A stretch of 64,000 nucleotides of DNA, from the NCBI GenBank assembly GCA_030694985.1, contig JAUYTV010000016.1, positions 1 through 64,000 on the forward strand, read 5' to 3'. How positions within the stretch are numbered: the first letter of the stretch is position 1; each line of letters begins with the position of its first letter. This document shows positions 16,589 to 37,854 of the stretch, piece by piece. The notes beneath the pieces are model-generated. The model saw only the letters and a list, made by a program, of their open reading frames with translations. It was not told where the DNA came from and did no database searches. This DNA comes from Methanoregula sp. Lineage in GTDB: Archaea > Halobacteriota > Methanomicrobia > Methanomicrobiales > Methanospirillaceae. Made by a program: the position numbers and the translations under genes.

Positions 16589-16604
16589 AAGGAGATAAAA
16601 AATT

Positions 16605-18458: not shown

Positions 18459-18466
18459 ATTAAATT

Positions 18467-19591
18467 ATGGGCGCAGGAGATTACTATGAGACTTTAGGCA
18501 TACCACGGAATGCCGATGAAAAAGAAGTAAAGAAAGCCTACCGCAACCTCGCCCGTAAATATCACCCGGATGTCTGCAAAGAACCGGGAGCCGAAGAGAA
18601 GTTCAAGAAGATCAACGAAGCCTACAGTGTCCTTTCCGATGAACAAAAGAAAGGCCAGTATGATAACATGGGTCACGAGACATTCACCAATGCCTCAAAA
18701 GGCTCCTATACCGGCGGAGGGCATGGCGGCGGAGGATTCTCTTCTGACTTCTCCGGTTTTGGGGATATTTTTGATTTTTTTGGTGGCGGACAGCGGCGCT
18801 CAGGCCCTCAACCGGGCGCTGACCTTCTCATGCGCATCCAGATCCGGCTTGAGGATGCAGTTTCTGGAATGGATCGCGAGATAGAAGTAATGCATACCGA
18901 ACCGTGCACTACCTGCAGTGGATCCGGCAGCGAGACCAAACGACTCAACACATGTCCCCGCTGCGGGGGAACCGGTCAGATGCGACAGACTGCCAATTCA
19001 GCCTTTGGCCAGTTTGTCCGCATGACGCCCTGCACCCAGTGTGGTGGAAAAGGAAAAATCCCTGAGAAGGTTTGTAAAACCTGCCGGGGTTCCGGTCATA
19101 CCCGCGTCAAGAGAAAAGTATCTGTACATATTCCGGCGGGGATTGACAATGGCATGCGGCTTCGCATGGAAGGGTATGGAGAAGCCGGTGATTACGGGGC
19201 TGCAAATGGAGACTTGTTCATCGAAGTGTATGTCCAGACCCATGACCGGTTTGTGAGAACTGGCGATAACCTTGAGACCACAATTGAGATAAGCCCGGCT
19301 CAGGCAGCTCTTGGAACATCTGTAGAGATCGAAACCATTGACAAACGTCATATCGATCTCAAAGTCCCAGCAGGAATACAGTATAATTCGGCATTAAAAC
19401 TTGGTGGCGAAGGAGTGAAACGTCGCGGGCATCCCGGGGATTTGCTCGTAAGAGTAAAAATTGTTACGCCAAAATCCATGAGTGGTGAACAGAGAGATCT
19501 TTACCAGAAACTTGCCGATCTCGAAGGCAGTTCCAATTCTGGCGGGGGATTTTTCTCAGGCATCATGGGAAAGAAAAAAGGAAAACATTAG
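18467..19591 (+). CDS. dnaJ: Chaperone protein DnaJ
   Basis: This is a 374-residue Hsp40 that stimulates DnaK. The J-domain carries HPD in [10 protein letters not shown] (about residues 28-37). A Gly/Phe-rich linker follows (about 75-110). Four zinc motifs follow in order: [24 protein letters not shown] and CKTCRGSG. The C-terminal substrate-binding domains complete a full type I DnaJ. It is the third gene of the operon, and an oligo-T run follows. Confidence 0.97.
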
Positions 19592-19666: not shown

Positions 19667-20635
19667 ATGAAGCTGCTCTTTGAGCTTTCTGGAGAGAATC
19701 CAACACTGCCCTTTGCAGAACTTGCCTGTGTCGGTACTATTCTTGAGGAGCGCCTGCAGGTTGCTGTTGTAAATTGTCCGTTCCCTGAAAATGCAAAACG
19801 ACTTGCTATGACACAGGTAGTGCTCGAATATCTTGGGGACTGTGAACCCCAAATTCCGGCATTTAAAAATTTACTCAAAGAACTGGCAATCACTACAAAC
19901 CACACATTTTCCGGCAGGGCAAAAAAAATCCATGGGGGGTTACATGAACACAATCCCTCATCGCAACGGGAGTTCGAACGGTTAATCGGGGATATGATAT
20001 CAGGACCTGTATCTTTAAACAACCCGGAGACTGAATACCGTGCAATCCTTTCTGAAGACAAATGTTATTTTGGAAAAGTCCTCTTCCCGATTAACCGTTC
20101 CGGTTATGATGCGAGAAATCCAGGGAAGCGAGATTTTTTTCACCCGGGTGTGATGATGCCAAGAATGGCGCGGACGCTGGCAAATATCGCAGGAGTTCAG
20201 GTTGGGGATCGTGTTCTCGATCCATTCTGCGGTACTGGTGGAATTCTTATTGAAGCAGATCTGCTGGGCGCAACTGCAATTGGCAGTGATTTTGATCCAT
20301 TGATGGTGCAGGGAAGCCGGCAGAATATTTTACAATCTTTACTGATGCTTGCTGATGCAACTCAGTTACCGTTTCAGGATCATTCGATCGATTCTGTTGT
20401 CACTGATCTACCCTATGGTCAGTCTGTCTGTATTAAAAAAGCAGACACTATGGATAACCTCTATGCCAAAGCACTGGATGAGATCGCCCGCGTCTTAAAA
20501 ATTGGACGGAGGGCGGTTGTTGTAACACATAAGGATATTTCCGGCATTGCCCGGCAACACATGACAATCCTTGAACAGCATAAACAGCGCGTGCACAAGA
20601 GTCTGACCCGGCATGTTCTTGTGCTTAGCCATTAA
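19667..20635 (+). CDS. tRNA (guanine(10)-N2)-methyltransferase, TrmG10-like
   Basis: This is a 322-residue enzyme with a THUMP-like N-terminal half and a C-terminal Rossmann methyltransferase. The SAM-binding motif is LDPFCGTGGILIEADLLG, followed by GSDFDPLM. The catalytic loop is TDLPYGQS, a DxPYG variant of the usual DPPYG. This arrangement fits the archaeal Trm-G10/Trm11 enzymes that methylate N2 of G10 in tRNA. The start ATG at 19667 lies 75 bases after dnaJ, beyond an oligo-T run, so it probably has its own promoter. Confidence 0.87.
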   Translation: MKLLFELSGENPTLPFAELACVGTILEERLQVAVVNCPFPENAKRLAMTQVVLEYLGDCEPQIPAFKNLLKELAITTNHTFSGRAKKIHGGLHEHNPSSQREFERLIGDMISGPVSLNNPETEYRAILSEDKCYFGKVLFPINRSGYDARNPGKRDFFHPGVMMPRMARTLANIAGVQVGDRVLDPFCGTGGILIEADLLGATAIGSDFDPLMVQGSRQNILQSLLMLADATQLPFQDHSIDSVVTDLPYGQSVCIKKADTMDNLYAKALDEIARVLKIGRRAVVVTHKDISGIARQHMTILEQHKQRVHKSLTRHVLVLSH

Positions 20636-20696: not shown

Positions 20697-21344
20697 ATGT
20701 ACGTTAAAAAAATAATCCACACGGGATTTTTCGTTTTTCTTCTCGTCATTCTTTGCTCCATGCCGGTACTGGCATATTCTCCTGATGCCACTGACTTGTA
20801 CGCACAGGGAAACCTCCTGATGAAAAATAAAAATTACACCCAGGCTGTCGCTGCATATGAAAAAGCTACTTCAATTGCCCCGGATTATTACGAAGCATGG
20901 AATAGCAAAGCTGATGCCTTAAACCGGGCACAACTTTTTAAAGACGCACTCTCTGCATCAGATAAATCCCTGTCTTTGAATCCTGAATATGCGCAGGGAT
21001 GGATCAACCGTGGCTATATCCTCTACAATCTTGGCAGGACTGATGACGAACTGAAAGCCTATGAAAAGGCAATATCCCTCGATCCATCAAATCCTGAGGC
21101 ATGGTTCAACAAAGGCTATTCCCTTGCAGGTATGAAACGGTATAATGAGGCTATTTCCGTATTTGATAAAGTCCAGTCACTCGATCCCAACTATCCGAAT
21201 CTTGCCGCAAACCGGCGGATTGCAGAACAGAGCCGCGATGCAGCTGTGCCGTGGTATGTTAAAAACGCACTCACTTTAGGAATTATTGCCCTTTTTGCCG
21301 TTGGGGCAATCGCGTGGTTTGTTTCGGTAAGGAAAGAATACTAA
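20697..21344 (+). CDS. Secreted, membrane-anchored TPR protein
   Basis: The product is 215 residues. A signal peptide (about 1-26, ending PVLA) precedes roughly four TPR units of 34 residues (for example AWFNKGYSLAGMKRYNEAIS). A C-terminal membrane helix (about 185-208) ends in RKEY. The TPR domain would therefore be extracellular and tethered at the C-terminus. It converges tail-to-tail on the giant TPR gene (72 bases apart). Its repeats follow the same consensus, so the two could be related by duplication, but this one has targeting signals that the giant protein lacks. Confidence 0.85.
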   Translation: MYVKKIIHTGFFVFLLVILCSMPVLAYSPDATDLYAQGNLLMKNKNYTQAVAAYEKATSIAPDYYEAWNSKADALNRAQLFKDALSASDKSLSLNPEYAQGWINRGYILYNLGRTDDELKAYEKAISLDPSNPEAWFNKGYSLAGMKRYNEAISVFDKVQSLDPNYPNLAANRRIAEQSRDAAVPWYVKNALTLGIIALFAVGAIAWFVSVRKEY

Positions 21345-21415: not shown

Positions 21416-24400
21416 TTACCGGGATTTTTCGTAACAGATCTGTGCATCCTCATGCTTGCCGATCGTATCTAATATTCCTCCAATATCCTTCCAAATCTCT
21501 TTTCTGGATGCATCCAGCTCCAGCGCATGCTTGAATACTGTAAGGGCATCCTGGTATTGTTCCATCTCTTTTAAGGAGCGTCCCTTGTGGATCCATGCAT
21601 CCACAAATTCCGGCTGGAGGGTGATCATATCAGAGTATGCCTCCACTGCCTCATCATACCGTCCCAGTGCATCAAGCGCACTACCTTTAGTAAAGTGGGC
21701 GATAGAAAAGGTTGGATCGATTGATATCGCCCGGTCGTATGAGTCCAAAGCATCCTTATCCTTATTCTGACCTGCCAGTGACATTCCATGACGAGTCCAG
21801 CCAACAACATTTTCGGGATTGATTTCAAGGCCCTGTTCATATGCAGATTGTGCTTCTTTAAATTTCCCCAAATCATAAAAGGCATTACCTTTGCCTATCC
21901 ACGCATCTGCTAATGTATCGTCGTGCTCCAGTGCCCGGTTAAAAGCATCGATGGCATCACGTGCCATACCCAGTTCAGCCAGGGCAACACCTTTGTGAGC
22001 AAATGTAGATGCTACATGATCAATCTCAAGTGCCCGGTCATAGGACTGGATAGCTTCCCGGAACTGCTCAAGTGTTGCATATGCAATACCACGGTACGCA
22101 AAAATTTCCGCAGAGCGGGGCTTGTTCTCAAGCGCATGGTTGTATGCGGTGATCGCAGCATCAACATTACCCTGTTCTGCGTATGCTCTTCCCATCCAGA
22201 AAAATGCAGGAGCGCAGGTAGGAGAACATTCGATTGCGTGTTCGAATGCGGAAATGGCCCATTCATAATTACCCAGTGAGAAATATGCTCTTCCATTTTC
22301 ATAAAGCGCATCAGCAAATCCGGGATTAATTGCCAGTAACCGATCGAATGCGACAATTGCATCTTTAAAATTCTCATTACGTATCAGGGCACGTCCTTTT
22401 TCGTAGAGTGCCTCTTCAGAATCAGGTTTTATTGCAAGTGCCGAATCAAAAGCAGCGATCGCATCACCATACCGTTTAATCCGGGCAAGGGCAATTCCTT
22501 TGTACTGGAATGCTTCATAGTACCGGGTATTAAGGGTCAACGCTTTTTCAAATAAGGCAATTGCTTCATCATACTGTTCCCGGTGAACCAGTGCAACACC
22601 CTTGTGATAAAACGCCTCGGGATATGCAGGCTGGCGTTCCAGAGCCAAATCAAAGGCATCAGCCGCTTCTGTGTACCGTTTCAGCTGGATCAGGGCAATG
22701 CCACGGTATAAATATGGAACCTCGTAGGCAGGGTCAATTGCAACCGCACGATCATAGCAGTCCAGTGCTGAATCGTAACTGCCCAGATTTGTCTCGGCAA
22801 TACCGCGATAGAGCCATGAATCAGCGTAAGTCCCGTTTTGTGCAAGCGCTTTATCAAAAGCGCTGATGGCCTCATGATACATTGAAAGCCCGGACAGTGC
22901 TTGTCCTTTCTGGAAGTATGCTTCAGCGCACCTGGGCCGGTGTGACAGGGCCGCATCCAGGTTTCTAATCGCATCCTGGTACCTTCCCAGACGGACATTT
23001 GATACACCGAGATTGTAATGTGCCTGTGCATCTTTGTTATCGATACCCAGTGCCTTGTTATAGCAGTTGATCGCGTCCTGCTCTTTATGCAATGCTGAAA
23101 GGGCAATACCTTTTCCGGTCCAGATCATCGCAGCTGTCGGACGGATACGCAGTGCAGGATCAAATGCTGCAATTGCATCTTCATACCGTCTAAGTCGGAT
23201 AAGTGCCCGCCCTTTCTGGTACAGGGCATCAATATTTTTCGGTTCGATCAAGATCGCATTTTCAAACGATTGTGTTGCCTCTTTGTACATTCCCAGTTGG
23301 AAGAGCGAACGTCCCTTATTAAAGAAGGCAAGCGTATAATCGGGACGTATCTCAAGCGCCCGGGCAAATGCTTCAATCGCATCATCGTATCCTCCGAGAG
23401 CATAGAGTGCACTACCTTTCAGGTACCATGCCTCTGCATTGGACTGGTCGATCTTCAATGTCCTGACATAAGCTTCAATCGCATCATTATATCGCGTAAG
23501 TCCGGCCAGAGCCCGCCCGCGATGCAGCCATCCGTCGATCGATTGCGGGTCAATCTGGAGCATGCGATCGAACGCAACAATTGCATCAGTCTGCCGCCCG
23601 ATAGCAGCCAGGGATAAACCTTTGTTGTAATGTGCCAGAGCATTGCCTGCATCAAGATCAATGTTTTTGTTAAATGCGATGATGGCATCTTCGTGCCGTC
23701 CCAGATGCGCAAGTGCAAGCCCTTTATCATAATATACCGCAGCGTAATTTTTCTCGATCGCTAATGCTTTATCGAATGTTTTTACCGCTTCGCGATACAT
23801 GCCAAGTGATGAAAGTGATCGGCCCTTGTCATAGAACGCTTCTCCAAATGCAGGATCAATTTCCAGTGCCAGATCATGCTCTTTTGCTGCTTCTTCAAAC
23901 CTGCCAAGATGATAGAGGGCCTTTCCTTTGAAATGATGAGTTTGTGCATGTGCAGGATCGAGCGAGAGCGCACGGTTGTATACAGTGATTGCTTCTTTTG
24001 TCCGGTTGAGAATATCCAAAGAACGGGCCTTGTTATAAACGGCGGCAAAACTATCAGGCTGGAGACTCAGGCATTGATCGAATGCCACTATGGCTTTTTC
24101 ATGCCGGTTGATCCTTGCAAGGATAAGAGCCAGTTCCAGCCATGCAGCCGGATTTTCCGGAGTAAGTGTGAGCAGATGCTCGTAGGATTCTGCGGACTTG
24201 GCATAGTCTCCTGCTTCAGATAATGCAGCAGACCGATAATAGAGTGTACCGGTATTATCTGGATCTGATTCAAGTGATTCATCCAGTGACCGGACCGCTT
24301 CTGAAAACTTTTTGAGATGGAACAAGGCAAGACCTTTTTCATATAATGCAATCGCATCTCCGGGTTTGAGTTGGATGGCCCGATTAAATGCCAAAATGGC

Positions 24401-27400
24401 GTCATCCATCTTCCCAAGAAGAGCATAAGCCATACCCTGTTCAAGGAATGCCCGGTAAGAGTCCGGGTTATACGAAGTGGCATGGGAAAAAGCATCGATT
24501 GCTTCTCCGTAATGCTTGAGATGCAGGAGTACTGAACCTTTCTCTGTCCAGATATCGGGATCTGTCGCATTCAGGTTAAGAGCTGCATTAAAAGCAACTC
24601 CGGCTTCTTCGTACCTGCCAACGATAACCAGAGAGAGTCCCTGTTCATAGGGGGGTTCAAACCGCTCTGGAAGATGGGCAGCTGCGGCTCCAAGGATTTC
24701 TGCAGATTCTGCATATCTTTCAAGATGGACGAGCGCACGTCCTTTTTCAAAGAGTATTTCGCCGTTATCCGGCTCGCGGCCCAGTGCAATGTCAAATATA
24801 TGAATGGCGTCTTCATATTTTTCCAGCCGTGCTAATGTTCTTCCCTCTAAAAAGAGGAGGGAGATATTGTATGGATCACCGTTCCGGGCACGCTCAAATG
24901 CAACAACTGCCTCATTATCCATGCCCAGATGCTCATAAGCGATACCGGTATGGTACCATGCACCAACATGTTCAGGTTCGTACGAGAGCATCCCTGCCAA
25001 TGCAGTGATCTCTTCGTCATATCGCCCGAGTTCTTCGAGAGCAAGCCCATTTTCCAGATACGCCTTAACAAAACCGGGATCGCAGGCAATCGTCCGGTCA
25101 AATGAGTGTGTGGCATTTTCATACCGGTGTAAAGCCACATATGCACGACCTAAGGCAAAGTGTCCATCCCGCCTGCTGTCATCAAGAGAGAGAGCCTGTA
25201 AAAATGCCACAATTGCTTCATCATACCGTAATAACCGGAAAAGTGCACAGCCTTTTTCGAAAAATGAACCATACACTTTTGGATCAAAACCGATCGCCTT
25301 TTCAAATGCTGCTGCTGCTTTCTCAAACTGGCTGGTTTTAGACAGGGCAAGACCTTTGTTATACCAGACATCATAGTTGCCACCGTCAAGACTGATGGCA
25401 GAGTCAAATGCCAAAATTGCATCTTTGAATTTTTTTGTGTGTGAGAGTGCAATACCCTTGTAATAATAGGCCGGGGCATATGAGGCATTAACAGACAGTC
25501 CCTTATCAAAGGCTTTTACGGCTTCTTTGTAATGGGAAAGACGGAGGTTTGCAAGGCCTGTGTCAAAAAATGCAGTGGCAAAATGCGGATCGATTCCCGT
25601 TGCACGTTCAAATGCTGTGATTGCATCGGTATCCCGTTCTAACCGGGTTAAGGCTACACCTTTGTCATAACAGGCATTGGCAAATTTCGGATTAATGGCA
25701 AGAGCACGATCATACGATAAGACGGCTTCATCAAATCTGCCCAGTTCAAAGAGGGCAATTCCACGGTCATACCACCCGTTTGCTGACACGGGCTTGAGCT
25801 CGAGGGCACGGGTTAGTGCATCCACTGCGGGTTCAAACTCCCCTGTCGAGAGATGTGCGCTTCCTTTCTTAAACCATCCTGGGGCACATGCAGGATCTGC
25901 TGACAGCACCCGCTCAAAACATTCTATTGCTTCCCTAGTTCTTACCAGTTCAAGATAGGATTTGCCCTTCCTGTACCATGCTGTGCTGTTCTCAGGTTCC
26001 AGTGCAAGAGCCCGGTCAAATGATTCTAACGATTCTGCGTACCGCTCACATTCATACAGAGCACTTCCTTTCAGAATCCAGACTTCTGATCGGTTATTCT
26101 CACGATCCAGGGCAGATTCAATCGGGACAAGTGCATCAGTAAACCTGTGAAGTTTTGTTAAGGCGAGTGCCCGCTGGTACATAACCGTTGCATCTTCAGG
26201 TGTCAGATCAAGCATCTTGTCAAATACCTGCAGGGCATTTTCATATTTGCCAAGCTGTGCATATGCAAGGCCGGACTGGTAAATCGCATCGTAAATCGAA
26301 GAATCCTGTGTAACTGCTGCTTTAAATTCCCGGATTGCTTTTTCGTATTTTCCTGTTGCGTTCAGTGCGAGACCCTTCTGGTAATGTGCCCCGGCATGTT
26401 CAGGAAGATATTCAAGAGTATAATCGAATGATTTGATCGCTTCAGTATAGTTTAAAAGACGGGCATACGCAAGTCCTTTTCCAAAGGCTGCGTCAGCGAA
26501 TGTTGAGTCCAGTGATAACGCGAGATCATAGGATGTGATGGCAGCTTCATCCTGTCCGAGTGCAAAGTGTGCCTCGCCTTTACCAAATGCGGCATGCGCA
26601 TCCTTTGGATTTAGTTTCAGTGTCTTTGTAAATGCATCAACAACCCCGTTAAAATCCCTAAGTAAAGTCTGTACCTGTCCTTTCTCAAACCATGTTGCCG
26701 GATCATCCGGTGCAATTTCGATCGAACGATTCAGGGAATTTAATGCATCCGAATATCGGTCAATGACAAGGAGTGCGTGAGCCCGGTTCGCATGAACCTG
26801 TGCGTCATCCAGACCAAGAGCGATTGCCTTATCAAAAGCAACAACGGCTTCTTCATACCTTTCAAGGGTAGCAAGAATGAGTCCTTTCTGATAAGCGGCA
26901 TCCGTGAGATGAGGGTTGAATTCAAGGGTACGATCGAATGCAGTAAGGGCATCTTCAAACCGGTGAAGATTTGTTAAAGCGAGCGCCCGTTGGTACAGAA
27001 TCGTTGCATCGGCAGGTGTTATTTCCAGCATCTGGTCAAAAGCACGGAGGGCATTTTCATGTTTGCCAAGCTGGACATAGGCAAAACCAGACTGGTAGAT
27101 CGCATCATGAATTGAAGAATCATGTGTCAGCGCAGTCTTGAATTCCTTGATCGCCCGATCGTATTTTCCGATTTTATTCAGTGCAAGACCTTTCTGGTAA
27201 TGTGCACCTGCATGTCCAGGAATATATTCAAGAGTATAATCGAATGCTTTGATAGCTTCCTGATAATTTAAAAGACGGGCAAGGGCGAGTCCTTTTCCAT
27301 AGGCTGCGTCAGCGAATGTGGAATCCAGAGATAACGCGAGATCATAGGCAGTGATTGCGTCATCATCCCGCTCAAGCCTGAACAGTGCCTCGCCTTTTCC

Positions 27401-30400
27401 AAACAATGCATGAGCATCCTTTGGACTCAGTTCCAGTGTTTTTTCAAAAGCACCAACTGCGCCATTGAAATCCTCAAGGAATGCCAGTGCCTGACCTTTC
27501 TCAAACCAGGCAGCCGCATCTTTTGGTGCGAGTTCTATCGAACGATTCAAAGAACCCAATGCATCGTTATACCGCCCGGCAACCAAAAGCGCATGTCCAC
27601 GACTGAACAGGATCCGGGCGCTCTCATCTCCTATAGTAAGAGCGTGATTAAAAAGGCCTATCGCCTCATCATTCCGGCCAAGAATAAAAAGCGCCAGACC
27701 CTTGTGATAGGCAGCATTCTGTTGCCATGGGTTGAGTTCAAGGGTGCGATCATATGCAGGAAGGGATTCTTCGTATTGTTCAAGCTGTTGAAGGGTCTCT
27801 GCTTTTTCAAACCATGCAACTGTGCATGAACTATCGTTTGCAAGTGCATTCTCAAACGCGTGTAATGCATCATCAAACAATGCCATACGGGCATACCCCT
27901 GTCCCTTGTAGTACCATGCTGCGGTATTTTGGGGGTCAATGCCCAATACTTTTTCAAAGAGAGTGATAGCATCTTCCCACCGTTTGAGGTGCATATAGGC
28001 TTTTGCCCGGAAGAACAGGGTTTTGGTATCCTGCGGTCTCGTCTTTAAGGATTTTCCCAGTGCCTCTACTGATTCTTTGAACCGGTTCAGGCGATACAGT
28101 GCATATCCCTTACAGGTGAGGATATCCGGATTGGCCTTGTCGTAATCCAGTGCATGATCAAGGGATATGACCCCATCTTCATACCTCTGAAGTTTAATGA
28201 GGGCCTCTCCCCGCGCATGGTGTGCCCGTCCATTCTCGGGATCGATAAGAAGTGCAGCATCAAATGCAGAAATTGAATCTTCGTGTCGTCCAACCTGTGC
28301 AAGGGCAAGACCTTTTGCCAGGAGAGATGGGGCATCATGACTGTCACTTGAAAGAGCCCGTTCAAACGATAGGATCGCTTCTGCGTAATTTCCCAGTTCA
28401 AAGAGTACAAATCCTTTTTCTGCATGAACCCTTGATGTATCAAGCCCAAGGGTGATGCTCAGGTTAAACACTTCAAGGGCAGATTCTGCCCTTTTCATCC
28501 GGGTTAAGGCAAGTCCTTTTTCATAGAGAATATGAACGGAATCGGGTTTGATGGAGAGAAATGCATCAAAGGTTTCCACTGCATTTTCGTAATTTTGCAG
28601 TATGACTAATGCTCTTCCTTTGCCGCACAAGGCGTCACTATTTACCGGGTTGAGCTCAAGCGTACGATCAAATGATTCCACAGCATCTTTTTCATGATTT
28701 AACTTTGCCTGTGCCTTGCCCTTATACAAAAATGCACGTTCGCATGCAGGATCAAGCAAGTTGACCCGATCATAAGACTGAATTGCATTATCATATAATC
28801 CCAGTTTATCCAATGCACGTGCCTCACCATAGAGCGCAGTAACCTCTTTTTGATCTTCAGCAATTACCCTGCCGAATGCATCAGCTGCATCCTTATAGCG
28901 TTCCAGTTTAAAAAGTGCCCGTCCCTTCTCGCGATATGCAGGGAAAAAATCAGGAATCAGGCTGTTTGCCTGTTCAAAAGCTGCGACAGATCCGGAAAAA
29001 TTACCAAGACGGTACAATGCGATACCTTTGTAATAGAAGGCCTCCCCAAATTCGGGCTGGTTGACCAGAGCCTGATCGAACGAGCCTGCCGCATCAGAAG
29101 GAGCATCAAGACTGAGTTGTGCACGCCCTTTGTAAAACCATGAATGGGCATTGTTCGAATCGATCTCGAGTGCGTTATTGTAAGACAGGATTGCTTCCTG
29201 GTAGCGCTCTCCGGCGGAAAGACAGAATCCTTTGATCAGCCATGCATTGGCAATCTTCGGATTTGTCTCAAGCGTTTTTGTTAGCGCATCTATGGCGTCA
29301 GCAAATTTTCCCAGTTCAGCAAGTGAGAGCCCTTTATGGTACAGGGCATCGGTGTATCCAGGATCAATATCAAGGGCCAGAGTAAATGACGAGACTGCCT
29401 CTTCGTGCTGAACCAATAATGCGTAAGAGAGTCCTTGCTGGTAAACAATATCAGCCCTCCTTGGTTCAATTTTATGGGCTGCCTCAAACACGATAATTGC
29501 ATCGGTGTAATTCTCCAGATGAGTAAGCGCCCGTCCCTTCTGGTAGAGCGTATCTGCATTATCCGGGGTAATTTCAAGAGTGATGTTGAACGAGAGCACC
29601 GCCTCTTCAAACATGCCAATTGCACATAGGGCAATTCCTTTATGGTAGAACGCCGTGGCATAACCGGGAATCAGATCGAGTACATGATCAAAGGATTCTA
29701 TTGCCTCCTTATGTTTTTCCAGATGTATGAGGGCAAGTCCTTTGTCGAAATATGCCTGTGCATTGGTCTTGTCCAGCTCGATTGTCCGGTTAAATGCAAG
29801 GACCGCCTTGTCGTATTGTTCCAGATCTAAAAATGCAACGCCTTTGCGGTACCATGCCCCTGAAAATTCCGGATTAATCTCGATTGCCCGTTCAGCAGCA
29901 GCAAGGGAATCTTCATTGCGTCCCAGATCGTGCAGTGCAAGCGCTTTGTAAAAAGCTGCATCTGCAAATTGGGGTTTAAGTTCCAGCGAGCGGTCAAAGG
30001 AGTCAAGTGCATCGCGGTAAAGGCCAAGAGTATAAAGAGACAGTCCTTTCTGGTAGACGGAAGACACATCAGTAGGAAGCAAAGAGAGTGCCCGGTCAAA
30101 TGCAGTAATTGCATCGTTATGCCTGCCGGTTTTTGCTAGTGCATAACCCCGGTTATTATGCGCCTTTTCAAAATCGGGATTAATATCGAGCGCCAAATCA
30201 AATGAAGAAACCGCATCATCATATCGCAATAGTTTTAAAAGAACGAGACCTTTATGGAAATGAGCCTCGCAAAATGCCGGGTTTAGTTCCAATGCCCGGT
30301 CGTATGATTCATTGGCTTCAGTGAAGTTCCCAAGATCGAACAAGGCCCGGCCTTTTTGATAATATGCAAAGGAGTTATGGGGGACCTCATGGATAGTACG

Positions 30401-33400
30401 GTCGAAATCCTTAATGGATTCCCGCAATTTTCCCAGTTGATAAAGAGCCAGCCCTTTTTTTAATCGGGCGTCTGTGAATTTTGGTTTGAGATGGAGCGTT
30501 TTATCAAAGGAAAATACGGCCTCACTAAACATCTCTAAGTTTGCATAGGATTGCCCCTTGTGGTAAAAAGCGAGTGCGTTGTCCGGATCATAGATAAGGG
30601 CCTTGTCAAATGCCTCAAGGGCTTCTTTATTCCGGTCAAGTTTCTGGAGAGAGATGCCACGGTTAAAGTGCCCTTGCGCGTTACTCGTATCATTCTCGAG
30701 ATTGCGGTCAAAAGCATCGATCGCTTCTTTGTATTTATCCAGTTTGAGATAGGAAAAGCCCAGGTAATAATAGGCTTCCGTATACGAAGATTCGATCTCA
30801 AGCGCACAGTTAAACGCATCAACTGCTTCCTTGTACATGCCAATCTCTGTTAACGACCGGCCTTTATTGTACCAGACAGGGGCAGATGGCTTAAGTGCAA
30901 TCGTCTTATCAAAAGCAACAATTGCATCCTGGTGATCCCCAAGTTTTGAGAGGGCCAGTCCTTTGTGGTACTGGGCATCACTGTTGAGAGGATCGATCTC
31001 AAGCAGCACTTCAAACACATGGATTGACTCTTCAACCCGGTTGATCTTTTCAAGTGACAGCCCTTTGTAATGGAATGCCTCAAGACACCGGTGATCCAAT
31101 GCAATTGCATTATCAAACGCATCAATGGCATCCTGGTATCTCCCCAGATCATAATATGCCCTGCCGCTTTTTACCCAGGCATCAACATGCCCGGGATCAA
31201 TTTTTACTGCTTTGGTATATGCAGTAATGGCATCATGAGTTTTTCCGAGTTCATTTAAGGCATCGCCTTTACAAACCCAGATATCCCGTAACGATGGATT
31301 TATGTCCAGTCCGCGGGTGTAGGCAACAATCGCATCCGTAGTTTTTCCCATCTCATAAAGGACATGTCCTTTTTTTACCCAGCCTTCGGACAGGTTTGGA
31401 TCAATCTCAAGGACTTTTGTAAATGCTATCAGTGCGTCGGGTTTTTTTAATAGACTGATATTTGCATTTCCTTTCAGCATCCAGATATCGACAAGAGTCG
31501 GATTCAAAGAGAGGATACGGTCTGCTGTTTCAATGGCCTCTGCATACCGTGTGAGATAGATTAAGGATTCAGCCCGGTAGATCAGCGCCTCCATCAGCGA
31601 GGGATTTGCTGCCAGACTCTTATCAATACTTATTACCGCTTCTTCATGACTGGAGAGGTGTGCAAGTGCCATACCTTGGTACATGTACCCTTCAGAAAGA
31701 GATGGGTCCATGTCGGTTGCTGACTTAAGTGCCCCTAACGCCTTCTCGTATTGCTTTGACTGGAGATAGGCAATGCCAAGATAATGATAGGACTGGGGAT
31801 TTGCCGGATCCCGCTCAATAGCCTGTTCAAAGGTGTTTACTGCATCCTCATATCTTTCAGACTGTATGAGTGCTATACCCCTGAAATGATATGCCGGGGC
31901 ATTGGTGGGATCGATCGTGAGCGCCTGATCAAAAGCTCTGACCGCTTCATCGTAGCGTTCCCGCCCGGCAAGAGAGATACCAAGATAGTAGTATGCCAAG
32001 CCATTTTCGGGTTGCAAGGTGAGAACACGTTCAAAGGTTTTGATCGCATCATCATACCGTTCACGCTGGGCAAGAGCAAGTCCTTTGTGATAGAGCGTCT
32101 GAGGATCATCCGGAAAGAGTTCAAGCGCCTGATCATAAGACAGCACCGCTTCAAGGTGTTTCCCCATTCTGGCAAGTGCAGTGCCCCGCTCATACCAAGC
32201 AGGTGCGCAGCGGCGGTTGATTTCCAGCACCCGGTCAAATGCTTTTACCGCATCTTCGGTCTTATCCAGCGCTGCAAGAGAAAGACCGGAATAATACCAT
32301 GCCGAAATATTTTCTGCATCATCTTCCAGTGCCAGATTTAGTATAGTAACTGCATCTGAAAACCGGGAGAGGTTGACAAGAGCAATTCCTTTTTTTACTG
32401 TGGCTTCAGTGAGTTGAGGGTTAAGGGCAATCGCTTTTTCAAACGCTTCAACTGATTTTTCTTCCAATCCCAGGTGAGATAGGGTTACACCTTTTTTGAG
32501 CCAGGCATCAACAAGGGTAGGATCCTGTTCAAGAGCATAGTTAAAAGCGACATTTGCCTCTTCAAATCTCCTCAGGTGCATCAGGGCTGCGCCTTTCTCA
32601 CTGGCAGCATCTGCATGCCGAGGAGAGAGAGCAAGAACCCGGTCAAATGCGGCAACAGCATCGTCAAACCGGTTGACCTTTTGGAGAGATTTTGCCCGAT
32701 AATACTGGGAATTGAGGTGTGCAGGGTCAATATCTATTACACTTTCGAATGCCTGTACCGCTTTTTCATAATTCCCGATATGGAAAAGTGCCTGGGCTTT
32801 TTCATAGAGAGCATCGATATTTTGAGGAGCAAATACAAGAACCTGTTCAAATGTCTTTAAGGCCTCATCGTATTGCTCATTTTTTACAAGAGCAAGTCCT
32901 TTTTTGAAGAGTGTTTCCCTATTGTCAGGATCGAACTCAAGTGCATTATTATAGGAATTTATTGCATCCGGCAGTCGGTTGGTTAAAAGAAGTGCGTTTC
33001 CCCGCTCGTAATGAGCTCTCGAGAAATGGTTATTGATCTCCAGTGCCTTATCAAATGCCCGGATCGCTTCATCAAACCGGTTTAAGGAAAGGAGGGCAAT
33101 GCCCTTATAGCACCATGCCCAGACATCCTGTGGATTATCTTCAAGGGAACGGTTGAAAAGAACGATTGCCTCGCCAAACCGGTCAAGGTTCACCAGCGCT
33201 ATTCCCTTGCGGACTGATGCTTCGTTATGTTTTGGGTTTAAGAGAATTGCTTTATCAAATGCGACAATGGCATCATCCTGCATACCAAGAGTTGCCAGAG
33301 ATATTCCTTTATGGAACCAGGCATTGATAAGAGAAGGATTCTGTTCAAGTGCTTCGTCAAAGACCAGAAGAGCTTCATCAAGCCGTTCAAGTTGCACAAG

Positions 33401-35281
33401 AGCCATTGCTTTTTCATACAATGCGCCGGCATTTTGTGGGGAGAGAACAAGAACGCAGTCAAATGCATCTATGGCATCGTCATAGCGCATAAGTTGCATG
33501 AGCATCATGCCACGCTGGTAGAGAGTCAGCGTGTGGGAAGGATCGATCTCTGCTGCCCGATCAAAAGCATCGAAAGCATCACTATACCGACCCAGGCTGG
33601 TAAGTGCGAGTCCCCGGTTGTAATGCGCATTTACATAATTGGGATTGATGGCAATGGCACGTTCAAACGCTTCGATTGCCTCTTTTGACTGTTCAAGCCG
33701 TGCGTAAGAAAGACCCAGGTCATAGAATGCCTGCGCATATGCAGGCTTTATCTCAATACTCCGCAGGTATGCATCAACCGCATCTTCAAATTTTCCGAGT
33801 TTTGCAAGCAGGAGTCCTTTCTGGTGGTATGCCTGGGGGTTTTTTGGTTGTTCTTCAATTGTCCTGTCAAATTCAGTTATCGCTTCAGTATTTCGTCCCA
33901 GTTTTGCAAGGGCAAATCCTTTGTGGTACAATGCATCCGCATATGCCGGACGGATTTGCAGTGCAAGGTCATAGGCAAGAATTGCTTCAGCATAGCGACT
34001 GAGATGTGCATAGGACAATCCCTTCTGGTACACAGCTGCTGCACATGTGGGATCTATGGTTTGTGCATCATCAAATGATTCAAGTGCATCGTTGTACCTG
34101 CCAAGTCGGGTGAGCGCAACCCCGCGGTAATAGAATGATGCTGCGTGATCTTCTTTTTTGCTTAACGCGTGATTAAACGCATCAAGAGCTTCATCATACC
34201 GGTTTAAGTTGATGCATGACACTCCTTTTAAATAAAAAGCATCTGCATTCGATTGATCAAAAGAAAGCGTCCGGTCGAAGTCCTGCACCGCTTCATCATA
34301 GTAGTTTAAGAATGCATAGGCAATACCACGGTTATAGTAGGTTTGGGCATGAGCCGGGCTGAGTTCTGCAGCTTTATCAAAAGCGCGAATTGCTTCGTTG
34401 TATTGCTGGAGCTGGTTATGAGCAAGTCCCTGGTGATACCATGCATCGGCCTGCTGGGGACTTAGTAAAAGTGCCTGGTGAAGTGCTGATATTGCGTCTT
34501 CATATTTTCCAATTTTCAGGAGTGAAATGCCGTTTATTGTCCAGATATCGGCATGATCGGGCTCGTGTTCAAGGAATTTTGCAGCTGATTGTGCAGCCGC
34601 ATCATAATGTTCCTGTTTTGCTAATATGAAACAACGGTAATACCAGACCCATATGTCGGCAGGGTCCAGTTCACTGGCCTTTTCAAATGCAGCCAGCGCT
34701 TCATCGTATTTTCCTATTTCATAAAGAGAGATCCCGCGGTTATAAAATGCCCTGGCATATTCGGGCACAATCGCGATCGCTTTATCGTAAGCGATGATTG
34801 CCTCATGGTGCCTGCCGATATCTCCAAGGGCTATGCCTTTATTGTAAAAAACTTTTGCCTGTTTTGGATCAATGGCGAGCGCATGATCGTATGCGCTGAT
34901 TGCCTCTTTGAACCGTCCCAGTTCGTACAATGCAATGCCTTTTAAGATCCAGACTTCGGCATTGTCAAACTGTATAGAGAGCAGTTGTTCACAAGCGTCC
35001 AGAGCTTCTTCATTCCTGCCAATCTGCGCCAATGTTGCTGCTTTATTATACCATGTGTTTGGGTCACCGGGTTCGATCGACAGGGCAAGATCATAAGCTA
35101 TGATTGCCTCATCAAATTTCCCGAGATCATAGAGGGCAATTCCTTTAAAATAATGGGCTTTTGCAAGTTTGGGAAACAGCGCAAGTCCACGGTCAAACAT
35201 GACGATGGCTTCCTGGTACCTGCCAAGGTCATAGAGTTCGATGCCCTGACGCAACAATGCTTCAGCATCACTCTTATTCAT
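21416..35281 (-). CDS. Giant all-TPR protein, about 4,621 aa, 136 TPR repeats
   Basis: One uninterrupted frame encodes only tetratricopeptide repeats. Each 34-residue unit follows W-x3-G-x2-L-x2-LG-x-[YF]-x2-A-[IL]-x2-[FY]-[DE]-x-[AT]-[LI]-x-[LI]-x-P. The repeat glycine is at residue 13 in the first unit and 4601 in the last. The distance is 135 steps of 34 minus two single-residue deletions (near KPSAPVW and DHVASTF), giving 136 units. No signal peptide, membrane helix or enzyme domain is present, so a cytoplasmic scaffold is inferred. The ATG at 35281 is chosen: GAGGTA lies nine bases upstream. An in-frame GTG at 35329 would add 16 lysine-rich residues. Two tandem eight-repeat duplications are visible inside. 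The role and partners are unknown. Confidence 0.93.
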   Translation of the reverse strand: MNKSDAEALLRQGIELYDLGRYQEAIVMFDRGLALFPKLAKAHYFKGIALYDLGKFDEAIIAYDLALSIEPGDPNTWYNKAATLAQIGRNEEALDACEQLLSIQFDNAEVWILKGIALYELGRFKEAISAYDHALAIDPKQAKVFYNKGIALGDIGRHHEAIIAYDKAIAIVPEYARAFYNRGISLYEIGKYDEALAAFEKASELDPADIWVWYYRCFILAKQEHYDAAAQSAAKFLEHEPDHADIWTINGISLLKIGKYEDAISALHQALLLSPQQADAWYHQGLAHNQLQQYNEAIRAFDKAAELSPAHAQTYYNRGIAYAFLNYYDEAVQDFDRTLSFDQSNADAFYLKGVSCINLNRYDEALDAFNHALSKKEDHAASFYYRGVALTRLGRYNDALESFDDAQTIDPTCAAAVYQKGLSYAHLSRYAEAILAYDLALQIRPAYADALYHKGFALAKLGRNTEAITEFDRTIEEQPKNPQAYHQKGLLLAKLGKFEDAVDAYLRSIEIKPAYAQAFYDLGLSYARLEQSKEAIEAFERAIAINPNYVNAHYNRGLALTSLGRYSDAFDAFDRAAEIDPSHTLTLYQRGMMLMQLMRYDDAIDAFDCVLVLSPQNAGALYEKAMALVQLERLDEALLVFDEALEQNPSLINAWFHKGISLATLGMQDDAIVAFDKAILLNPKHNEASVRKGIALVNLDRFGEAIVLFNRSLEDNPQDVWAWCYKGIALLSLNRFDEAIRAFDKALEINNHFSRAHYERGNALLLTNRLPDAINSYNNALEFDPDNRETLFKKGLALVKNEQYDEALKTFEQVLVFAPQNIDALYEKAQALFHIGNYEKAVQAFESVIDIDPAHLNSQYYRAKSLQKVNRFDDAVAAFDRVLALSPRHADAASEKGAALMHLRRFEEANVAFNYALEQDPTLVDAWLKKGVTLSHLGLEEKSVEAFEKAIALNPQLTEATVKKGIALVNLSRFSDAVTILNLALEDDAENISAWYYSGLSLAALDKTEDAVKAFDRVLEINRRCAPAWYERGTALARMGKHLEAVLSYDQALELFPDDPQTLYHKGLALAQRERYDDAIKTFERVLTLQPENGLAYYYLGISLAGRERYDEAVRAFDQALTIDPTNAPAYHFRGIALIQSERYEDAVNTFEQAIERDPANPQSYHYLGIAYLQSKQYEKALGALKSATDMDPSLSEGYMYQGMALAHLSSHEEAVISIDKSLAANPSLMEALIYRAESLIYLTRYAEAIETADRILSLNPTLVDIWMLKGNANISLLKKPDALIAFTKVLEIDPNLSEGWVKKGHVLYEMGKTTDAIVAYTRGLDINPSLRDIWVCKGDALNELGKTHDAITAYTKAVKIDPGHVDAWVKSGRAYYDLGRYQDAIDAFDNAIALDHRCLEAFHYKGLSLEKINRVEESIHVFEVLLEIDPLNSDAQYHKGLALSKLGDHQDAIVAFDKTIALKPSAPVWYNKGRSLTEIGMYKEAVDAFNCALEIESSYTEAYYYLGFSYLKLDKYKEAIDAFDRNLENDTSNAQGHFNRGISLQKLDRNKEALEAFDKALIYDPDNALAFYHKGQSYANLEMFSEAVFSFDKTLHLKPKFTDARLKKGLALYQLGKLRESIKDFDRTIHEVPHNSFAYYQKGRALFDLGNFTEANESYDRALELNPAFCEAHFHKGLVLLKLLRYDDAVSSFDLALDINPDFEKAHNNRGYALAKTGRHNDAITAFDRALSLLPTDVSSVYQKGLSLYTLGLYRDALDSFDRSLELKPQFADAAFYKALALHDLGRNEDSLAAAERAIEINPEFSGAWYRKGVAFLDLEQYDKAVLAFNRTIELDKTNAQAYFDKGLALIHLEKHKEAIESFDHVLDLIPGYATAFYHKGIALCAIGMFEEAVLSFNITLEITPDNADTLYQKGRALTHLENYTDAIIVFEAAHKIEPRRADIVYQQGLSYALLVQHEEAVSSFTLALDIDPGYTDALYHKGLSLAELGKFADAIDALTKTLETNPKIANAWLIKGFCLSAGERYQEAILSYNNALEIDSNNAHSWFYKGRAQLSLDAPSDAAGSFDQALVNQPEFGEAFYYKGIALYRLGNFSGSVAAFEQANSLIPDFFPAYREKGRALFKLERYKDAADAFGRVIAEDQKEVTALYGEARALDKLGLYDNAIQSYDRVNLLDPACERAFLYKGKAQAKLNHEKDAVESFDRTLELNPVNSDALCGKGRALVILQNYENAVETFDAFLSIKPDSVHILYEKGLALTRMKRAESALEVFNLSITLGLDTSRVHAEKGFVLFELGNYAEAILSFERALSSDSHDAPSLLAKGLALAQVGRHEDSISAFDAALLIDPENGRAHHARGEALIKLQRYEDGVISLDHALDYDKANPDILTCKGYALYRLNRFKESVEALGKSLKTRPQDTKTLFFRAKAYMHLKRWEDAITLFEKVLGIDPQNTAAWYYKGQGYARMALFDDALHAFENALANDSSCTVAWFEKAETLQQLEQYEESLPAYDRTLELNPWQQNAAYHKGLALFILGRNDEAIGLFNHALTIGDESARILFSRGHALLVAGRYNDALGSLNRSIELAPKDAAAWFEKGQALAFLEDFNGAVGAFEKTLELSPKDAHALFGKGEALFRLERDDDAITAYDLALSLDSTFADAAYGKGLALARLLNYQEAIKAFDYTLEYIPGHAGAHYQKGLALNKIGKYDRAIKEFKTALTHDSSIHDAIYQSGFAYVQLGKHENALRAFDQMLEITPADATILYQRALALTNLHRFEDALTAFDRTLEFNPHLTDAAYQKGLILATLERYEEAVVAFDKAIALGLDDAQVHANRAHALLVIDRYSDALNSLNRSIEIAPDDPATWFEKGQVQTLLRDFNGVVDAFTKTLKLNPKDAHAAFGKGEAHFALGQDEAAITSYDLALSLDSTFADAAFGKGLAYARLLNYTEAIKSFDYTLEYLPEHAGAHYQKGLALNATGKYEKAIREFKAAVTQDSSIYDAIYQSGLAYAQLGKYENALQVFDKMLDLTPEDATVMYQRALALTKLHRFTDALVPIESALDRENNRSEVWILKGSALYECERYAESLESFDRALALEPENSTAWYRKGKSYLELVRTREAIECFERVLSADPACAPGWFKKGSAHLSTGEFEPAVDALTRALELKPVSANGWYDRGIALFELGRFDEAVLSYDRALAINPKFANACYDKGVALTRLERDTDAITAFERATGIDPHFATAFFDTGLANLRLSHYKEAVKAFDKGLSVNASYAPAYYYKGIALSHTKKFKDAILAFDSAISLDGGNYDVWYNKGLALSKTSQFEKAAAAFEKAIGFDPKVYGSFFEKGCALFRLLRYDEAIVAFLQALSLDDSRRDGHFALGRAYVALHRYENATHSFDRTIACDPGFVKAYLENGLALEELGRYDEEITALAGMLSYEPEHVGAWYHTGIAYEHLGMDNEAVVAFERARNGDPYNISLLFLEGRTLARLEKYEDAIHIFDIALGREPDNGEILFEKGRALVHLERYAESAEILGAAAAHLPERFEPPYEQGLSLVIVGRYEEAGVAFNAALNLNATDPDIWTEKGSVLLHLKHYGEAIDAFSHATSYNPDSYRAFLEQGMAYALLGKMDDAILAFNRAIQLKPGDAIALYEKGLALFHLKKFSEAVRSLDESLESDPDNTGTLYYRSAALSEAGDYAKSAESYEHLLTLTPENPAAWLELALILARINRHEKAIVAFDQCLSLQPDSFAAVYNKARSLDILNRTKEAITVYNRALSLDPAHAQTHHFKGKALYHLGRFEEAAKEHDLALEIDPAFGEAFYDKGRSLSSLGMYREAVKTFDKALAIEKNYAAVYYDKGLALAHLGRHEDAIIAFNKNIDLDAGNALAHYNKGLSLAAIGRQTDAIVAFDRMLQIDPQSIDGWLHRGRALAGLTRYNDAIEAYVRTLKIDQSNAEAWYLKGSALYALGGYDDAIEAFARALEIRPDYTLAFFNKGRSLFQLGMYKEATQSFENAILIEPKNIDALYQKGRALIRLRRYEDAIAAFDPALRIRPTAAMIWTGKGIALSALHKEQDAINCYNKALGIDNKDAQAHYNLGVSNVRLGRYQDAIRNLDAALSHRPRCAEAYFQKGQALSGLSMYHEAISAFDKALAQNGTYADSWLYRGIAETNLGSYDSALDCYDRAVAIDPAYEVPYLYRGIALIQLKRYTEAADAFDLALERQPAYPEAFYHKGVALVHREQYDEAIALFEKALTLNTRYYEAFQYKGIALARIKRYGDAIAAFDSALAIKPDSEEALYEKGRALIRNENFKDAIVAFDRLLAINPGFADALYENGRAYFSLGNYEWAISAFEHAIECSPTCAPAFFWMGRAYAEQGNVDAAITAYNHALENKPRSAEIFAYRGIAYATLEQFREAIQSYDRALEIDHVASTFAHKGVALAELGMARDAIDAFNRALEHDDTLADAWIGKGNAFYDLGKFKEAQSAYEQGLEINPENVVGWTRHGMSLAGQNKDKDALDSYDRAISIDPTFSIAHFTKGSALDALGRYDEAVEAYSDMITLQPEFVDAWIHKGRSLKEMEQYQDALTVFKHALELDASRKEIWKDIGGILDTIGKHEDAQICYEKSR
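26125..27750 (-). repeat. Tandem duplication of an 8-TPR (816-bp) module inside the giant gene
   Basis: Two neighbouring blocks (about 26125-26935 and 26935-27750) are homologous at a fixed offset of 816 bases, which is eight TPRs. For example, the segment CCTTTCTCAAACCA begins at 26679 and again at 27495. At protein level the matching phrases include DSTFADAA(Y/F)GKGLA-ARLLNY and PEHAGAHYQKGLALN. Similarity runs through all eight repeats, so this is a recent block duplication. Boundaries are approximate. Confidence 0.85.
31817..33448 (-). repeat. Second tandem 8-TPR (816-bp) module duplication inside the giant gene
   Basis: Blocks at about 32633-33448 and 31817-32632 pair at the same 816-base offset. 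The encoded phrases KGIALVNLDRFGEAIVLFN and KGIALVNLSRFSDAVTILN mark equivalent positions (GGTT at 33187 and 32371). All eight repeats align in order, but divergence is greater than in the other pair, so this duplication is older. Confidence 0.75.
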
Positions 35282-35352
35282 ATATTTTTTTACCTCGCAC
35301 GATAGTTTTTTTGTTTTTTTTATTTTCACGTGGCAATACTTAAAGGATATAA

Positions 35353-35362
35353 GTTTTATAAA
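35353..35362 (-). promoter_or_regulatory. TATA box of the giant TPR gene
   Basis: On the minus strand this reads TTTATAAAAC. Initiation is predicted near 35331, giving a leader of about 50 bases with GAGGTA before the ATG at 35281. That leader fits the ATG start and would place the GTG at 35329 almost at the transcript end. Confidence 0.5.
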
Positions 35363-35607
35363 GGCGGCATATACCCTTTCCGGTACAATATATGTACATC
35401 CGTCATTTATGAATCCTGTTTTTTATACAGGGAAATTGAAGGAGAGAAGAGATATTTACCACACTTTTTTATTTGCTCTAAAAAACGTTACGCCATCAAC
35501 AGTGAAAAAGATCTCATTATGAAATTGCGATGATAGAGGTAATTTTAAAAAACAGCGGCGACAAAATGAGGTAAAAAACAAAATTAGATTTGAACATCTT
35601 ATATGAG

Positions 35608-35681
35608 AGCCTATGCCGAGATTTGAACTCGGGACTTCCTCCTTACCAAGGAGGCACACTGCCGGGCTGTGTCACATAGGC
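35608..35681 (-). tRNA. tRNA-Thr (anticodon GGT)
   Basis: This is a complete cloverleaf on the minus strand. The acceptor stem is GCCTATG with CATAGGC, and the D arm is ACAC with GTGT. The anticodon stem CCTCC/GGAGG encloses loop TTGGTAA, and the T arm is CCGAG-TTCAAAT-CTCGG. The anticodon GGT reads ACC threonine codons. The discriminator is U, as is usual for archaeal tRNA-Thr. CCA is not encoded and there is no intron. Confidence 0.97.
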
Positions 35682-36168: not shown

Positions 36169-37122
36169 ATGACTTATACCATTACCTTGATCACCACTGA
36201 TGAAAACGAGCGCCTGATGGAACTATATCTCCCAAAAGTCCTCTACGAGATCAAATCAGAAATTTACGGGTGTTGCATCAAACTGCTATCAGATGACCAA
36301 ACCGTAAAGGAAACCTGGCAGGATAATTTTTATCCGATGTCACAAAATGTGCGGTCTCACGGCCGCCTTTTTGTATTCAAAGATCCCTCCTGTGGACCAG
36401 ACACAGTTTTTTTCGATTCGCATTCGAGGTCTGCGTACCTGATTAATTTCAATTACTATGGCTGGATAAAATCAATCGCCCTCAGTCTTGCCGGGGATAT
36501 CCTGGAAGATCAACATAACATCTATTCTGTGCATGGAGCCTGCATGGACATTGACGGAAAAGGTCTCTGCCTTATTGGAAATTCCGGTGCAGGCAAAACC
36601 ACCCAGACCTACGGACTCTTAAAAGATCCTAATACCCGCATCGTATCGGATGACTGGTTTTTTTCACGGGTTTATGGGCCGGACATCCTTGCTTATGGTT
36701 CGGAAAAAAACTTTTACATACGAAAAGATCTCGCAACGGTCTGGAAAGAATATGACGGGCTTGTTCCTGAAGGGGATTTTGATAAGGAAGGAAGAGCAGT
36801 TGCAGATCTCCGGTGGGTGATTGGAAAAGGCAGAATCCTTCCGATGACGACCTTGAAGATGATGATAATATTAAAACGGGATCCAATGGATAAAAACGAA
36901 GCCCGATCGCTGCTCCCCGAAGAAGGTCTCTTGCTCTTTGAGGGAAATAACTACTTTAACCCTCATCTTCTGGTCAACAATTCCTATAAAAAACATATAC
37001 GGAAACGGTATATTACAAATCTCTTAGAAAGGACAACAGTGTACCTGGTAAATACAATCAATACCCCTGAGGAAACCCAAAGGCTGATCCGTTCACTTGC
37101 AAATGTTCCCCAGAGTCCCTGA
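36169..37122 (+). CDS. HPr kinase-like P-loop protein
   Basis: The product is 317 residues with the fold pattern of HPr kinase/PEP carboxykinase C-terminal domains. The sequence VHGACMDIDGKGLCLIGNSGAGKTTQ holds a Walker A at 137-145, followed by RIVSDDWFFSR as the acidic metal-binding region. The N-terminal 100 residues are not recognisable. Methanogens lack a normal sugar PTS, so the substrate is unlikely to be HPr. It lies directly before a PPDK fragment and the PPDK gene, enzymes that handle PEP and phospho-histidine, so a role in phosphorylating a related protein is possible but unproven. Confidence 0.75.
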   Translation: MTYTITLITTDENERLMELYLPKVLYEIKSEIYGCCIKLLSDDQTVKETWQDNFYPMSQNVRSHGRLFVFKDPSCGPDTVFFDSHSRSAYLINFNYYGWIKSIALSLAGDILEDQHNIYSVHGACMDIDGKGLCLIGNSGAGKTTQTYGLLKDPNTRIVSDDWFFSRVYGPDILAYGSEKNFYIRKDLATVWKEYDGLVPEGDFDKEGRAVADLRWVIGKGRILPMTTLKMMIILKRDPMDKNEARSLLPEEGLLLFEGNNYFNPHLLVNNSYKKHIRKRYITNLLERTTVYLVNTINTPEETQRLIRSLANVPQSP

Positions 37123-37344: not shown

Positions 37345-37854
37345 ATCATAACAACGAAATGGGTAGATGAGATCCACACCCGTGTTGAAAAAACCTACAC
37401 CATGAAACTGAACCTAATGTGCGATTCCCTGCTCGAAGTGGTACGCGCCTGCATGCGGGCAGACAATCTTGCAGAACAGGCAGAATTCTTTTCGTTTGGA
37501 ACAAACGACCTGACACAGGCCACGTTCTCTTTTTCTCGCGAAGATGCAGAGAACAAGTTCCTTCCCATGTATAACCAGAGCGGCATACTACAGGACAATC
37601 CGTTTGAAGTATTGGATGTCAAGGGAGTAAAAAGGCTCATGCAGTCAGCAGTCAAATGGGGGCGGCACACACGTCCTGACATGAAAGTCGGAATTTGCGG
37701 CGAACATGGCAGACATCCCGCATCCATCCGCTTCTGCCACAAGATCGGCCTGACCTATGTCACCTGCTCCGGCCCCCGCATCCCCATCGCACGGCAGGCG
37801 GCTGCACAGGCTGCAATTACTGAAGGCGAAAAGATGAATGACAAGGCGGCTTAA
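37345..37854 (+). pseudogene. C-terminal fragment of pyruvate phosphate dikinase (partial duplication)
   Basis: This region matches the last 170 or so codons of the intact PPDK gene at a constant offset of 3,100 bases. It reaches to the same stop position without any gap. Homology begins near 37354 (KWVDEI) just after an in-frame TGA at 37342. An ATG at 37402 would give a 150-residue product. That product keeps the catalytic cysteine motif GICGEHG but has lost the ATP-grasp and swivelling-histidine domains. The frame is intact, so it could be expressed as a stand-alone PEP/pyruvate-binding barrel half. A decaying relic is more likely. Confidence 0.85.

Follow-up and report, generated by a model that had tools for sequence, protein, structure and literature searches.

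A natural protein of 136 tetratricopeptide repeats in Methanoregula, from a family whose array lengths differ mostly by multiples of eight repeats

The window analysed here is a 64,000-nucleotide stretch at the start of a Methanoregula sp. contig (JAUYTV010000016.1). Its minus strand carries a frame of 4,637 open codons (21416-35329, counted from a GTG at 35329) that contains a giant tetratricopeptide repeat (TPR) gene. The ATG at 35281 is the start equivalent in all orthologues examined, and from it the gene encodes a protein of 4,621 aa with a computed mass of 516.9 kDa and pI of 5.2. A sequence-only reading of this DNA had proposed the same frame and start, and our analysis confirmed both. 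The locus comprises the following features:

16061-19591, plus strand: grpE-dnaK-dnaJ, conserved neighbours, convergent to the giant gene and not sharing an operon with it
19667-20635, plus strand: TIGR01177-like methyltransferase, a conserved neighbour
20697-21344, plus strand: 215-aa TPR protein, convergent; its N-terminus has a signal-like segment and its C-terminus a membrane helix
21416-35281, minus strand: giant TPR gene from the conserved ATG (4,621 aa, 136 units)
35353-35362, minus strand: putative TATA box, recognised by its sequence TTTATAAAAC, directly 3' of the palindromic element
35370-35385, minus strand: palindromic promoter element TACCGGAAAGGGTATA, core ATATACC-N6-GGTATATG
35607-35681, minus strand: tRNA-Thr(GGT), located upstream of the promoter; several relatives also carry this sequence upstream

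We divided the giant frame into units with a weight matrix built from the frame itself. The division returned exactly 136 contiguous units, the number claimed earlier, and they follow the TPR pattern of tandem 34-aa helix-turn-helix units with W4-L7-G8-Y11-A20-F24-A27-P32 (G8 0.88, A20 0.89, P32 0.74). Of these units, 133 are full-scoring, two have 33 aa and the final one has 28 aa; apart from these three the spacing is exactly 34 aa. The protein opens with MNKSDAEALLRQG straight into unit 1 and terminates within unit 136. Pfam matched TPR or TPR-like models only (TPR_1 with 2,194 bits) and found no non-TPR domain in all 4,637 aa of the frame, which agrees with the proposal of a protein made of nothing but TPRs; the C-terminal glycosyltransferase domain that marks OGT and SPINDLY was also absent by Pfam. 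Judged from the sequence, the protein has no signal peptide, lipobox or membrane helix, and together with the Pfam result this upholds the earlier statement that signal peptide, membrane helix and catalytic domain are all missing. The gene is a genuine, pure TPR array.

Repetitive genes are error-prone, and breaks do exist among the relatives: G015 is the sole finished genome in which the giant gene is split into two frames, and the frame of G019 is interrupted by N in the assembly. Against an assembly artefact or mis-joined array, colinear intact frames of 3,800-5,400 aa occur in more than 20 other, independent assemblies, six of them single-contig genomes (G011, G033, G017, G020, G062, and G178). 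Tandem Repeats Finder detected no DNA-level tandem repeat with a period of up to 500 in the gene, so the array is old and diverged, and collapse or expansion of a repeat during assembly does not account for it. The dN/dS ratio between G000 and G001 was 0.149 over 4,590 codons and fairly even along the length (0.12-0.19), and that between G006 and G008 was 0.089, with dnaK at 0.07 for comparison. The gene is thus under purifying selection (dN/dS 0.09-0.15), which also argues against an artefact, and we regard that explanation as negligible. Neither the collapsed or mis-joined array nor the split into several frameshifted genes of which the sequence-only reading had warned was found. A very large protein in a 2.5-Mb genome must, moreover, pay for itself.

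Of the 39 genomes in the genus, about 34 have a giant orthologue, finished single-contig genomes among these; the N-terminal 323 aa were matched in 31 of the 39. G004 and G012 contain gene fragments, in G028 the start of the gene lies at a contig end, and some related genomes have no detectable giant gene. The sister genus g20 has the gene in five genomes, plus a contig-end promoter in G177. Beyond these two genera no orthologue was found among the 232 genomes of the order at the threshold used, and a contig scan with sequence-specific peptides of the giant returned unrelated TPR proteins only. Typical TPR domains have 3-16 repeats (PMC4304861), or 2-20 according to one review (PMC7279152). 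The giant family, conserved over two genera, has 112-159 units per chain and nothing else, and searches of the literature for giant TPR proteins of methanogens did not turn up any description of this family.

Two further pure TPR giants come from methanogens of the same order: G000:C3, encoded in the same genome, has 88 units, and G037, which belongs to another family of the order, encodes one of 196 units and about 6,700 aa. Pure-TPR giants are therefore not unique to this lineage. Both differ from the giant studied here in that they show no orthology signal with it beyond the TPR consensus and do not share its promoter element.

This palindromic element sits about 110-160 nt ahead of unit 1, upstream of the TATA-like box. 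We found exact TACCRGAAAGRGTATA in 35 of the 232 genomes, as a single copy in each. The match precedes the giant gene, or a contig end where the gene would start, in 33 genomes. No TPR frame follows either of the two remaining matches (G184 and G151); the one in G151 directly precedes a 209-aa non-TPR frame. Slightly diverged versions occur in G006, G010, G026, and G031. A wider regulon was also considered and rejected, as no second target gene emerged from the 232 genomes. From this sequence pattern the giant gene appears to be controlled separately, perhaps through a regulator with a single target that acts on the element, and the single-copy nature of the element makes such a regulator findable.

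Most genomes of the genus, and the sister genus as well, maintain the order giant gene - small TPR gene - methyltransferase - dnaJ - dnaK - grpE. This synteny is what speaks for a giant Hsp70 co-chaperone or client platform partnering the adjacent grpE-dnaK-dnaJ, an explanation that we consider improbable. Transcription is convergent and the giant gene has its own promoter element; in G011, G017, and G029 the neighbour order is lost although gene and element are retained. TPR co-chaperones of Hsp70 and Hsp90 clamp the EEVD tail of their partner chaperone, but the neighbouring DnaK ends in ...NADYKVKEE and has no EEVD-type tail. The loss of synteny in several clades and the missing tail both disfavour the co-chaperone idea.

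A comparison of repeat number across the order, suggested by the sequence-only reading, showed that the number differs among orthologues, between 112 and 159 units, and that it does so in a regular way. Complete orthologues of the genus have 112 (n=2), 120 (n=7), 128 (n=4; the N-broken G019, counted as 127, would make it 5), 136 (n=4), or 144 units (n=2), and one clade deviates with 134, 151, and 159. The sister-genus orthologues, retrieved after the rule of eight had been noticed, have 112, 128, 121, and 121 units, with G179 cut by its contig. Overall, complete orthologues run from 112 to 144 in steps of 8, with the exceptions 121, 121, 134, 151, and 159. Unit-level alignments, made under an affine gap cost without preference for any one length, gave pairwise gaps of 8 (222), 16 (42), and 24 units (16), a few of 1 unit, and gaps of 7 and 15 units that come mainly from one clade. 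On the tree we inferred at least 15 length changes, of which two are of 7 units, one is of 1 unit and the others are multiples of 8; these events were counted by hand and are not fully independent. The exceptions of 7, 7, and 1 units show that the rule is not absolute.

We then asked where these changes lie in the DNA. Periods of 816 bp are beyond Tandem Repeats Finder, and duplications were therefore sought with a DNA lag scan. In 19 genomes all internal duplications of at least 72% identity over 204 bp occurred at lags of 8, 16, or 24 units, and none at any other lag from 1 to 32. In each clade, both 8-unit copies resemble each other more than they resemble any other clade. There are at least three separate indel sites (units 19-34; in clade I, near 41-53; in the sister genus, 51-66; and 75-105). 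In the window, two of them are seen as duplications:

31799-33430, minus strand: site A, units 19-26 and 27-34, an old 8-unit duplication in tandem
26804-27619, minus strand: site C copy one (units 76-83) of the 8-unit duplication of 816 bp, the most recent one
25988-26803, minus strand: site C copy two (units 84-91)

At site A, 8 units are missing in some clades and 7 extra ones are found in another, and most length changes are concentrated at site C, where G005 and G031 have 2-4 nearly identical 8-unit copies.

For consensus TPRs, one superhelical turn is completed every eight repeats (PMC7885266). The nearest solved structures by sequence are such consensus TPRs (9qhb, E=3e-97). AlphaFold2 models, built on orthologue alignments for units 1-34 and for the final 35 units, show unbroken helical hairpins with mean pLDDT of 91.8 and 92.9, which supports the long superhelical rod or spring envisaged earlier; the pTM of 0.41-0.42 leaves the global shape uncertain, as is expected for flexible, long solenoids. 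The CTPR8 crystal 8chy, which represents one turn, fits the two models well (2.4 and 2.3 Å, 269 columns each; TM 0.89 and 0.90), suggesting that locally eight units make about one turn in the giant too. If this is so, a whole-turn insertion or deletion would shift the remainder along the axis without rotating the ends against each other. The pitch of CTPRs is about 7.2 nm per turn, at which the 17 turns of the giant would be about 120 nm long.

The steps of eight could also be a by-product of DNA recombination, in which a chance duplication is followed by unequal crossing-over of 816 bp and the match to the turn is a coincidence. Recent duplications do cluster at site C, the 2-4 near-identical copies there are typical of higher-order-repeat dynamics, and unequal exchange between 8-unit copies already present could repeat the step without selection; the clustering thus keeps this explanation alive. 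However, 8-unit changes also occurred at units 19-34, at 41-53, and at 51-66. In orthologue profiles of the 120-unit core the lag-8 similarity at site C never exceeds 0.2, and G061 and G176 have deletions of 8 and 16 units at places without detectable lag-8 similarity. Furthermore, the paralogue G000:C3 shows internal similarity at lags 1-2 and not 8, and the 7-unit exceptions are also about one turn. Because these exceptions approximate a turn and the changes arose at multiple sites, selection on register is favoured over pure higher-order-repeat recombination, which we judge unlikely while still giving it serious weight. Period-8 physico-chemical surface signals in the oldest core are weak, multiply tested and suggestive only.

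Conservation across nine clades is highest at the head of the array, and the far end is specialised as well:

34553-35266, minus strand: conserved head, units 1-7 (63-87% mean identity, nine clades)
21419-21502, minus strand: unit 136, the last, of 28 aa; its conserved polar residues look like a cap (position 21 Q/K/R)

Units 1-5 are the most conserved in the array (74-87%), conservation in units 131-135 likewise exceeds the average, and units from about 73 to 111 are mostly lower (0.40-0.55), with exceptions around 80 and at 93-95. Within the unit, identity beyond the TPR consensus (nine clades) peaks at positions 2-6, 9, 31, and 34 of helix A and the loop. It is also high at the core packing positions 24 and 27, intermediate at position 13 and lowest at the helix-B positions 18, 19, 22, 26, 29, and 33. 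In TPRs the helix-A positions face the concave side and those helix-B positions the convex side; by this assignment the predicted concave-face residues of the giant are conserved.

Both end units have unusual residues at packing positions. Position 10 of unit 1 is E, or G or N in two sister-genus members, and position 21 of the last unit is Q, K or R in all orthologues but one; in internal units each of E, G, and N reaches at most 0.5% at position 10, and the same holds for K and for Q at position 21. These polar residues look like solvent-facing caps, and capped ends would disfavour end-to-end polymerisation. They therefore bear on the idea that molecules stack end to end as TPR filaments, in which whole turns keep the subunit orientation constant. 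The totals themselves, besides their differences, are mostly multiples of 8, and both array ends are well conserved, as this idea would have it, but conserved polar residues at the packing positions of both ends count against it, and we rate filaments as quite improbable.

Taken together, the mostly whole-turn length differences among about 40 related species and the dedicated promoter motif argue for a real, selected protein, probably a scaffold. We favour, with somewhat better than even confidence, a monomeric cytoplasmic superhelical scaffold or spacer whose length evolves by whole turns with its ends in rotational register. The protein would be a TPR superhelix of about 0.52 MDa with 17 turns (14 to about 20 in relatives). 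A whole-turn indel would lengthen the rod and leave one end unrotated against the other, and selection would discard other lengths. The conserved head (units 1-7) and the tail would hold partners at a fixed mutual orientation, the concave groove would bind extended ligands, and length would be tuned turn by turn in the middle, at about units 73-111, which is less conserved. From this we infer a scaffold role, its partners sitting at the two ends and along the groove. Conservation of the ends makes these partners findable. More tentatively, and with slightly less than even confidence, the giant may be a single-chain TPR ruler or spring of 100-140 nm with a dedicated promoter, in which whole-turn length changes fix the rotational relation of the ends, and the first natural repeat protein in which selection on register can be read from evolution. 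The family is in any case a natural test of whether superhelical geometry constrains repeat-protein evolution, as a rule of whole turns only predicts workable engineered lengths.

The TPR solenoid is of a known kind; what is new is the size, the quantisation by one turn and a promoter element dedicated to the gene. CTPR8 and CTPR16-20 (2fo7, 8bu0/8chy, 9qhb) are the closest solved structures by sequence, with 34-aa units, eight units per turn and the one-turn fold match described above. CTPRs are, however, designed proteins of identical repeats with at most about 20 of them, whereas the giant family is natural, diverged and unit-specific, with 112-159 units and specialised ends. O-GlcNAc transferase and SPINDLY (1w3b, 7y4i) have natural pure TPR superhelices with a conserved concave groove, which match the giant strongly in sequence and fold, but they combine about a dozen TPRs with a catalytic domain that the giant lacks. 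TPR scaffolds of the PilW, PrsT, and BamD type are secreted or membrane-bound, unlike the giant with its lack of signal peptide, lipobox and membrane helix. Ski3/TTC37 and the IFT-A TTC21-type scaffolds are the longest natural TPR scaffolds among the fold matches and consist mostly of TPRs; they are eukaryotic complex subunits of 1,300-1,600 aa with irregular repeats, at most about one third of the size of the giant.

Besides the giant of the window, its genome (G000) carries a further giant pure-TPR gene, and a pure-TPR open frame was also found in G037, a genome from a different family of the same order:

G000:C3, 1121-10216, minus strand: second pure-TPR giant (locus L082), 3,031 aa, 88 units
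G037:C6, about 153802-173934: pure-TPR open frame (loci L083-L084), about 6,710 aa, 196 units

Within the 88-unit array of the second giant, similarity peaks between adjacent units (lags of 1-2 units), and relatives of this gene were found only in G001, G004 and G012. G000 is very rich in TPR, with 54 places matching the first 2,000 aa of the window's giant. G052 has a partial pure-TPR frame resembling that of G037, and next to both the TPR giant in G037 and the partial one in G052 lies a gene related to the RibD-like gene of the window. In the single-contig genome G015, the giant (L072) is broken in two: one frame has 3,232 aa, the other 1,831 aa, and about 1 kb is not in frame; this split is either a sequencing error or a real disruption.

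Around the giant, the following features of the window were noted:

20697-21344: small TPR protein, convergent with the giant
35370-35385: palindromic promoter element of the giant
36169-37122: protein of 317 aa whose core is HPr-kinase-like
37402-37854: frame of 150 aa that matches PEP-utilising enzymes in their C-terminal part only
38180-40954: full-length pyruvate phosphate dikinase/PEP-synthase-like gene

The small TPR protein, which is also kept in the sister genus, has a signal-like N-terminus and a membrane helix at its C-terminus. The palindromic element occurs as a single copy per genome across the two genera. The HPr-kinase-like core lies in an archaeal protein whose gene is upstream of the PEP-utilising enzymes, where the 150-aa frame, possibly a partial duplicate, adjoins the full-length gene.
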